From: Prochlorococcus marinus str. MIT 0918
GTDB lineage: Bacteria; Cyanobacteriota; Cyanobacteriia; PCC-6307; Cyanobiaceae
Length of the DNA: 64,000 nucleotides
Assembly: GCF_027359415.1 (NCBI RefSeq)
Contig: NZ_CP114780.1
Span: forward strand, 124,001 to 188,000
Reading direction: 5' to 3'
In this document: positions 9,443 to 12,441 of the stretch, piece after piece
Position numbering within the stretch: position 1 is the stretch's first letter
How the letters are laid out: the number at the start of each line of letters is the position of its first letter
Notes under the pieces: generated by a model
The model's database searches: none
Told to the model about the DNA's origin: nothing
The model's input: the letters and a program-made list of their open reading frames with translations, nothing else
Made by a program: the position numbers and the translations under genes

Positions 9443-10531
9443 TTACTCCGATGTTGCTAATTCAAAATCAGCAAGATTATTTTGATCATTTCTATCAAAG
9501 ATTTTACAAAAAGCTTTGATAACTCGATCACCTGAATCAATTTGTTCTAAAGGATCTTTTCTTAATCTATGTCTCAATGAGCATGAGATTACACGCGCGA
9601 TATCATCTTCCGAAACTTCTGTACGGCCTTCAAAGGCAGCTAATGCTCTTGATGATCTATTTGTGACAATATCTCCTCTTAGACCGTCTACATCTAACTC
9701 TCCACAAATAGCCGAAATGTTTAACCTTAAATCATCATCAATTTGTACATTTGTTAAAAGTTTTTGAGCCGCAACAACTTTTTCCTGTAAAGCATCTTGA
9801 GAAGATTTTATAGAGGAGATAAAAGTTTCTGGATCATTGTCAAAAGAAGTTCTTTGATCAACAACTTTAACTCTTAATTCTGGCTCTCTTACTGTTCGAA
9901 CTTCAACACTCATTCCAAACCTGTCTAGAAGTTGAGGTCTTAGTTCTCCTTCTTCTGGATTGCCTGAGCCAATTAAAACAAATCTTGCTGGGTGTCTTAT
10001 AGAAATACCTTCTCTTTCAACTGTGTTCCAGCCAGAGGCCGCTGAGTCAAGAAGAACATCCACTAGATGATCATCAAGCAAATTAACTTCATCTACATAA
10101 AGCAGCCCTCTATTCGCTTTAGCTAAAAGACCTGGTTCAAAGGCTCTAACTCCTTCGCTAAGTGCTTTTTCAATATCAATTGTTCCACAAAGACGATCTT
10201 CAGTTGCACCAAGTGGTAGGTCTACCATAGGAACTTGTTTTTCCTCTATAAGAGGAGTCTCCCCTGCATCTATTTGTTGGAGGACTTCAGTACTTTGAAG
10301 ATCAGGATCATCTGGCGAACTATTGTAAGGATCTCCTTGTACAACATTAATTCCTGGCAAGAGATCAGCCAATGCTCGGATAGTTGTGGATTTGCCAGTG
10401 CCTCTATCTCCCATAATCATTACCCCGCCAATTCGAGGGTCAATTACGTTAAGCAGAAGAGCTAGTTTCATCTCTTCCTGGCCAATTACTGCTGCAAAAG
10501 GGAACACCCTTCGCTTGCTTGATGAACTCAC
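9443..10531 (-). CDS. chlI: Magnesium chelatase ATPase subunit I
   Basis: A 362-residue AAA+ subunit that powers Mg insertion into protoporphyrin IX, the committed step of chlorophyll synthesis, together with ChlD and ChlH. The Walker A is GDRGTGKST at residues 41-49, Walker B is [11 protein letters not shown], and the ChlI-specific [25 protein letters not shown] insert region follows (given here as a landmark near residue 180). The length matches cyanobacterial ChlI. The start is a GTG at 10529-10531. It heads the minus-strand run with ruvC. A hairpin lies 64-95 bp upstream, between it and the preceding gene. Confidence 0.97.
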
Positions 10532-10645: not shown

Positions 10646-11677
10646 TCAATCTTTTTTGGATAGATTAGTTATTGAGGCAGCTAGTTTCTGGATAATTCTC
10701 GATGCCTTTGGATCATTAACAGGAGTTTGGACAATAAATCCAGCAAATATATTTGAAGCGTTTGGCATCTGTATTATTGCTGCGTCAGCAAATGAAAGTC
10801 CTAGGATCCCTGTTTTGTTAAATACTCGAAAGCCTTTTTTTAAAAGCGTGTAATCAATTTCCCTTTGCTCAAGATTTAATCCTTTAAGCAGGCCTTCAGG
10901 TATAAGACTATTTGTGATTGATGTACTTAAAACTTCCCTGAAAAGATCTCTAGACTTTAGGCTAAGAAAATTTCCATCATTAGCTAATTTCAAAGCTTTT
11001 ACGAGGTTTTGAACTGTTGTTTTGTTAGTACCTTTTGAATCAGGCAAGAGACTGTTTATTTTTGTTTGATTAAGTTTGAGTTTGTCTAGTTTATTCCTTA
11101 ATTTTCTTATTCCTCCTAATCTTTCTATTAGAAGATTAGTTGCTGTATTATCACTAACTCTTATCATCTCTGTTGCAACTTTGAACAATGGAAATTCTTT
11201 TCCTATAGGTTCATATCTCATCCATCCTGAACCTTCAGCAATTATATCTGGTGTAATCGTTAACTTTTCATCCCATTGCAACTTCCCTTTATCTATCATT
11301 TCTAGGCACAATAATAAAATGTATATATTTATAGTACTTCCACTAGGAAGTATTTTATTTGGATTTAAAGTTAAGGACTGACCATTTTCTAGTAAAACAT
11401 AACCACTTATTTCTATATCTCTATTGGCAGAATCTATTTTATCCCACTCTTTTTTAACTTCATCTATATTATAGTATTTTATATTTAAATTCTTAAGAGA
11501 TTTATTACTTATATTTGTTATGGAATCTACCTTTTTAGTTTGTTTATTGATCGGCACATTTTTCAGTGCTGTTCCTACTAAAACTCCTATAGTTATTCCT
11601 GACAAACAAAGTTGGAAGATTATCTTTGGAAGCTTGTTGGATTGTTTTTTATACAAATTGTTGCGATAATTTTTCAA
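10646..11677 (-). CDS. Beta-lactamase-fold protein with altered SxxK motif
   Basis: A 343-residue protein of the class A beta-lactamase/PBP-like serine hydrolase fold. An N-terminal hydrophobic segment (about 18-36) suggests a membrane anchor or signal. The usual motif SxxK reads S-T-I-N: Ser114 is present but the general-base Lys is Asn117 (codon 11327-11329). SDN is intact at 175-177 and KTG at 288-290. Without the lysine, normal acylation chemistry is doubtful, so it may bind peptidoglycan or act weakly. The TTG start at 11677 is supported by an upstream AAAAGGAGGT, among the strongest ribosome binding sites noted here. It follows trmJ by 23 bp. Confidence 0.82.
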   Translation of the reverse strand: MKNYRNNLYKKQSNKLPKIIFQLCLSGITIGVLVGTALKNVPINKQTKKVDSITNISNKSLKNLNIKYYNIDEVKKEWDKIDSANRDIEISGYVLLENGQSLTLNPNKILPSGSTINIYILLLCLEMIDKGKLQWDEKLTITPDIIAEGSGWMRYEPIGKEFPLFKVATEMIRVSDNTATNLLIERLGGIRKLRNKLDKLKLNQTKINSLLPDSKGTNKTTVQNLVKALKLANDGNFLSLKSRDLFREVLSTSITNSLIPEGLLKGLNLEQREIDYTLLKKGFRVFNKTGILGLSFADAAIIQMPNASNIFAGFIVQTPVNDPKASRIIQKLAASITNLSKKD

Positions 11678-11700
11678 ATAACCTCCTTTTGATTAAGGGT

Positions 11701-12441
11701 TTACTTGGTTTTTTTGTGAAACCATCTTAATTGCCTTAAAATTCCTCTGATTAAGGCAATCTCATCTGATCTTACTTCGCCTCTTTGAAGTAACACTTGT
11801 ATCTTTGACATTCTTGATTTAGCAGTATGTTTGTGTAGAAAACCTATTTCTAGTAAGAGTTTTTTTGCATCCTCAATAAAGTTATTTAATTCTATTGCTG
11901 GGGCATATTCAATTAGAGAATCATTTTCTAAGAAAGAAAATTCATTTTTAGAAGTGTATAAATTATTGAGAATAATTGCTACTGCATGTGAGAGGTTAAG
12001 AGATGGATAGTCTTTTGATGTTTGTATTGAAATGACTTTCTGTGCCAATAGAAGTTCAGTATTTGAAAGTCCTCTGTCTTCTCTTCCAAAAACCAAAGCA
12101 ATTGGTTTGTTTGTAGATTTTTTAAGAATCCACTCTAAAACATGTTTGGAAGAATTTAGAGGGATACTTTTCCCATGATCAATACGACCACAAGTAGCAA
12201 TGATGTGACCACAATCTTCTACTGCATCTATTAATTCTTTATATATTTTTGCATTCTCAAGAAATGATTTGCCATGCATGGCCATCTTTAATGAATCGGG
12301 ACTTAATGGATCACAACGTGGAGAAACTAGTCTTAATTCATTAACATCAAAATTCTTACAAAGTCTGGCTATGCTCCCTAAGTTAATTTCTCCTATTGGC
12401 TCTACTAAGATTATTTTGACGTCAATCTTTCTTTTATCCAC
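11701..12441 (-). CDS. trmJ: tRNA/rRNA 2'-O-methyltransferase, SpoU family (TrmJ-like)
   Basis: A 246-residue SPOUT methyltransferase. The N-terminal IILVEPIGEINLGSIARLCKNF and LRLVSPRCDPLSPDSLKMA match TrmJ, which methylates the ribose at position 32 of tRNAs. The AdoMet knot is seen in ALVFGREDRGLSNTEL, and SLNLSHAVAIILNNLY is motif 3. Length agrees with TrmJ rather than TrmH. The start is a GTG, two bases after the cytM stop codon, so the pair is translationally linked. The exact tRNA target is inferred from the family. Confidence 0.87.
   Translation of the reverse strand: MDKRKIDVKIILVEPIGEINLGSIARLCKNFDVNELRLVSPRCDPLSPDSLKMAMHGKSFLENAKIYKELIDAVEDCGHIIATCGRIDHGKSIPLNSSKHVLEWILKKSTNKPIALVFGREDRGLSNTELLLAQKVISIQTSKDYPSLNLSHAVAIILNNLYTSKNEFSFLENDSLIEYAPAIELNNFIEDAKKLLLEIGFLHKHTAKSRMSKIQVLLQRGEVRSDEIALIRGILRQLRWFHKKTK

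Follow-up and report, generated by a model that had tools for sequence, protein, structure and literature searches.

The window, i.e., the whole stretch of 64,000 nucleotides that was analysed, carries on its minus strand an ORF of 343 amino acids with a TTG start (10646..11677). From the ORF itself, its PF13354 domain and its match to Tll2115, the gene was assigned to a PBP-A orthologue with a defective active site. PF13354 (Beta-lactamase2) was the single significant family in a Pfam search of the ORF (E-value 1.6e-43, residues 96–307). A Shine-Dalgarno-like sequence, AAAAGGAGG, can be read immediately 5′ of the start codon (11682..11690, minus strand). The upstream neighbour encodes a SpoU-type RNA methyltransferase, designated trmH here (11701..12441; PF00588), and the downstream neighbour is chlI, for the Mg-chelatase ATPase subunit (9443..10531; PF01078); both genes lie on the minus strand, and their synteny with the PBP-A gene is conserved. 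Residues from about 18 to 39 (11561..11626, minus strand) are predicted to form a hydrophobic N-terminal membrane anchor, as suggested by the sequence, by a low-confidence model helix at residues 15–39, and by the similar anchors encoded in the same gene slot of sister genomes. The AlphaFold model, made from 4 sequences, has a mean pLDDT of 58.4, and residues 252–307 are below 50.

The catalytic motifs were located by alignment and by reading of the minus strand. Ser114 (AGT, 11336..11338), which corresponds to the SxxK nucleophile Ser61 of Tll2115, is kept. It is followed by Thr115 (ACT), Ile116 (ATA) and, where the SxxK Lys is expected (Lys64 of Tll2115), by Asn117 (AAT, 11327..11329). The S-T-I-N motif given in the preliminary description of this DNA was thus borne out. 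The same description regarded the SDN and KTG motifs as intact. Both are indeed present, at residues 175–177 (11147..11155, minus strand) and 288–290 (10808..10816, minus strand), but the residue directly after KTG had been missed: Ile291 (ATC, 10805..10807, minus strand) occupies the place where the alignment predicts an active-site Asp (Asp222 of Tll2115).

The closest PDB match of the ORF was Tll2115, the PBP-A of Thermosynechococcus elongatus (E-value 4e-43, residues 95–335), and the next protein was a beta-lactamase (5.5e-11). Neither the omega-loop Glu166 nor a score above the NCBIfam cut-off, as expected for a class A beta-lactamase, was found. Leu is present at the Glu166-aligned place (in LPD; Leu158 of Tll2115), and the bla_class_A score was 77.6 bits against a cut-off of 200. 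The beta-lactamase identity was ruled out by the missing Glu166, by the scores far under the NCBIfam cut-offs, and by PBP-A being the closest solved relative. The earlier name, beta-lactamase-like, therefore holds for the fold family and not for the function, which in the closest protein is that of a DD-peptidase. A published study describes PBP-A as an enzyme with both DD-carboxypeptidase and DD-endopeptidase activity and with specificity for amidated muropeptides, confined to cyanobacteria and without the class A glutamate, and lists its active site as Ser61-Lys64, Ser122-Asn124, Leu158 and Lys219-Asp222 (PMC11189452). From this list, Lys64 and Asp222 are absent in the window protein and the rest is kept. 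Of the features of an active PBP-A, the domain homology, SDN, KTG and the trmH-pbpA-chlI position were found, and the SxxK Lys and the post-KTG Asp were lacking. As judged from sequence comparison, the protein is by descent and position an orthologue of the cyanobacterial PBP-A, a DD-carboxypeptidase/endopeptidase family closely related to the class A beta-lactamases. It should not be labelled either a functional PBP-A or a beta-lactamase; two of the active-enzyme features that were tested are lacking.

The preliminary description had proposed comparing position 117 across Prochlorococcus strains. PBP-A matches were obtained in 288 of 400 sampled genomes of the wider family and in 7 of 14 genomes of the window's genus (g1), the window genome included. 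Loci were read from 140 of these 288 genomes, one genome per species, with position 117 unread in the other 148. Among the 142 loci with E-values of 1e-10 or lower, position 114 is Ser and position 117 is Lys in 135; six are partial and do not cover the site, and the remaining one, that of the window, pairs Ser with Asn. Lys was thus found in all of the other readable loci (135/135) and Asn in the window alone, in one strain of the species. A chance misalignment of SxxK was ruled out, because the alignment is ungapped around the Ser in phmmer, BLAST and MAFFT.

The departures are not limited to the Lys. At 77 near-invariant positions (conserved in at least 97% of 131 other full-length homologues), the window protein departs at 16, the PBP-A of genome G016 (L037) at 24, and each of the remaining 130 homologues at five or fewer; this count excludes partial loci, paralogues (L046-L048) and duplicates (L031-L033, L049-L055, L181). 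The departures include A112S, A113G, K117N, L214S, D291I, I292L, Y296F, G318T, F320V and R324K, and PAAS around the nucleophile Ser has become PSGS. Asp directly follows KTG in 130 of the 131 other full-length homologues, where the window protein has Ile. The stretches EMIRVSDNTATNLLI and ADAAIIQMP are identical to those of the g1 sisters. Two other copies were observed in this survey: L010 (G089) has KAG-D for KTG-D with SxxK and SDN intact, and L112 (G240:C17:12489-13623), from another genus, has two in-frame stops (TAG and TAA) and is a possible pseudogene or an assembly error.

A second full-length copy with a broken active site was found in G016 (L037:1513-2547, plus strand), and it evolves faster than any other copy that was examined. 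Like the window copy, it is syntenic and has a whole frame. Unlike the window copy, it keeps SxxK (as STIK); its SDN is changed to KND and its KTG-D to HSG-E.

The gene slot was then compared among the genomes. The order rsmD, cytochrome c gene, SpoU methylase gene, PBP-A gene and chlI is found in G001, G007, G008, G013, G016, G072 and G099, and in G010 the slot region is split over two contigs. In g17, which is without PBP-A, the slot is closed in 3/3 genomes (L195-L197: G078, G029, G105), with about 148 bp separating the SpoU methylase gene from chlI. The slot is readable in five of the seven g1 genomes without PBP-A, and an ORF of 223–241 amino acids lies there in 5/5 (L183:2247-2918 and L189:2251-2961, plus strand; L188:734-1459, L190:735-1460 and L191:736-1461, minus strand). 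The product shares the gene slot and a similar N-terminal anchor with PBP-A; the PBP-A domain is gone, and an ARC6-like IMS domain (PF13355, above the cut-off in 5/5) is in its place as the C-terminal part. The G012 slot copy has 46–52% identity to the C-terminal domain of proteins of roughly 680–690 amino acids, encoded elsewhere in 11 g1 genomes, which from their domain and their length we take to be ZipN-like. The N-terminal 40 amino acids resemble the PBP-A anchor (L183 versus L032, 68% identity over 40 amino acids, E-value 2e-13; L188 versus L031, 34% over 80 amino acids, E-value 8e-07), and in each of the 45 pairings of anchors the score exceeded that of 300 shuffles by 5.5 to 18.9 standard deviations. 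The link to the window's own PBP-A is weaker: it is strong in the case of G002 but less so elsewhere, and the G011 anchor scored only 45 against it, compared with 39 for the best of the unrelated ORFs of the window. No small IMS protein was found in 19 genomes outside g1 (12 without PBP-A), where the slot protein matched only long ZipN-like proteins or PBP-A anchors. In the g1 genomes without PBP-A, one domain thus appears to have been replaced by another in a syntenic position.

The species tree was made from six genes, i.e., trmH, cytochrome c, rsmD and part of chlI, which were supported by Pfam, together with a putative gyrA and a putative HD-domain protein gene. On this tree the window lineage branches off first within the sampled genus (aLRT 99.2, UFBoot 98). 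The five genomes with the IMS protein, together with G003, in which the slot is unreadable, group in a single nested clade (aLRT 97.4, UFBoot 90), and a single replacement event is therefore the simplest reading, with the five slot domains grouped weakly in the IMS-domain tree (82.5/47). The idea that the window protein is a direct precursor of the replacement is unsupported, because the IMS genomes are nested elsewhere. From the gene contents and motifs compared here, PBP-A catalysis is lost repeatedly, by the deletion in g17, by the broken SDN and KTG in G016 and by the IMS replacement, and the window lineage is one of several.

The window's genome encodes other proteins of this type. An S13 DD-peptidase (PBP4/DacB type, 432 amino acids) has SNTK, SHN and KTG as read by eye, with S13 matches in 11 of the 14 g1 genomes, and an additional transpeptidase-like protein has STFK. 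A second PF13354 protein of 298 amino acids (L179:725-1621, minus strand; G000:C1 around 1039805-1040356) has SIVK, SSND and KAG by eye. Its divergent neighbour resembles an NlpC/P60 endopeptidase, also by eye, and proteins of about 300 amino acids similar to the second PF13354 protein recur across g1. With the S13, second PF13354 and transpeptidase-like proteins at hand, PBP-A catalysis may be dispensable, and the reaction that was lost is probably taken care of by the S13 DD-peptidase.

To consider whether the gene is retained or decaying, its evolutionary rate was compared with those of its relatives. For the window, the ratio of the PBP-A terminal branch to that of the species genes was 2.71; G016 had a ratio of 4.30, nine others with intact SxxK gave 0.74–2.19, and the window PBP-A evolves about 1.7 times faster than the sisters' median. 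The raised rates show that constraint has been relaxed in both decayed copies. Nevertheless, the frames are whole in both, the codon-position GC of the window gene is like that of the sisters, and the strong Shine-Dalgarno sequence is kept. Neutral drift was simulated from 3 starting genes under 2 base compositions, with 400 runs each; stops were counted and indels ignored. The sequence reached 16 changed invariant positions free of stops in 0.75–1.75% of the runs (probability 0.0075–0.0175), and 8 changed positions in 6–13%. Indels lie outside the simulation, and it was the open frame that drew attention to the gene; within these limits the result favours retention but does not prove it, and we infer continued selection on the window gene. 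The raised rate is also compatible with a simple relaxation of constraint before the gene is lost. The gene could be a pseudogene in waiting, in which a dispensable PBP-A decays neutrally at its active site while the frame is still unbroken; this would agree with the raised rate, the 16 lost positions, the deletion in all three g17 genomes examined, the in-frame stops in the G240 relative and the S13 DD-peptidase in the same genome. On the other hand, the rarity of stop-free neutral runs, the retained Shine-Dalgarno sequence and the unaltered EMIRVSDNTATNLLI and ADAAIIQMP stretches speak against it, and we regard it as a possible but clearly less probable explanation. A membrane-anchored periplasmic PBP-A with a decayed active site, still kept as a pseudoenzyme, is the reading that we moderately favour over a gene on its way out.

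The preliminary description expected the protein, without the lysine, to be inactive or much slower. This is likely from the sequence, with the Lys being one of several active-site losses, and the window PBP-A probably has little or no catalytic activity left. According to a review (PMC6723624), the activation of the serine in class A enzymes can be argued for either Lys73 or Glu166, and class A beta-lactamases with Lys73Ala are trapped as non-covalent Michaelis complexes. Because PBP-A has Leu at the Glu166 place, no backup base would remain once the Lys is gone. A slow enzyme, in which water or a residue other than the Lys takes over the activation of Ser114, or acylation of a changed substrate is substrate-assisted, so that the site is remodelled and not lost, would be consistent with the presence of Ser, SDN and KTG and with the debate on the acylation base. 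However, the alternative base is missing, the post-KTG Asp is also lost, the Lys73Ala mutants stop at the Michaelis complex, and no candidate replacement base was found among the changed conserved positions: no His, Glu or Asp is gained at any of the 16 departures, and the one Lys that is gained (324) replaces Arg. This explanation is accordingly improbable.

A sequencing or assembly error at the lysine codon, which the preliminary description had named as a possible refutation, is very hard to credit: one base separates AAT from AAA or AAG, but the genome is a single contig of 99.99% completeness, fifteen further near-invariant positions differ, and D291I takes at least two base changes, so that a single error is ruled out as the whole explanation.

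Returning to the pseudoenzyme, the following course may be proposed. In the window lineage, Asn has replaced the SxxK Lys and Ile the post-KTG Asp, with several nearby invariant residues changed. Ser114 would then no longer be activated, and acylation would be absent or very slow. Non-covalent holding of muropeptide stems may persist, because Ser, SDN and KTG remain. The pseudoenzyme would then persist as an inner-membrane-anchored protein that is wall-binding or division-associated. The putative scaffold role suggested in the preliminary description agrees with the unbroken frame and with what has become of this gene slot in the sister genomes. A broader proposal, which we consider doubtful, is that the genus is turning PBP-A into a non-catalytic anchored wall/divisome adaptor by two independent routes, i.e., the point changes in the window (SxxN) and the IMS swap with a kept anchor in a sister clade, the window protein being a muropeptide-binding pseudo-PBP held at the Michaelis-complex stage. 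ZipN is described as a membrane tether of FtsZ that interacts with FtsQ, FtsI and FtsW in Anabaena, with an inconsistent predicted topology (PMC6391411).

In the titles and abstract openings of the literature matches listed, no naturally SxxK-less PBP-A was found, nor was an SxxK pseudoenzyme or inactive beta-lactamase-like protein of this kind among them, and the match obtained for PBP-A in Prochlorococcus was unrelated. No relative was found in viral contigs. Should the window protein be retained, nature would have produced a wall-binding pseudo-PBP comparable with the Lys73Ala mutants made in the laboratory. The repeated deletion, decay or domain replacement in one slot offers a clean comparative system for separating catalysis from anchored presence of a low-molecular-weight PBP in streamlined cyanobacteria.

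Compared with known proteins, the window PBP-A is nearest to Tll2115 (PDB 2j7v, 2j8y, 2j9o, 2jbf), with which it shares the Ser, SDN, KTG and the Leu at the Glu166 place; it differs in having Asn for Lys64, Ile for Asp222 and about 16 extra residues before KTG. The class A serine beta-lactamases (TEM, KPC, CTX-M) have PF13354 and the same motif order as the window protein, whereas the latter is without both the Glu166 equivalent and the SxxK Lys.
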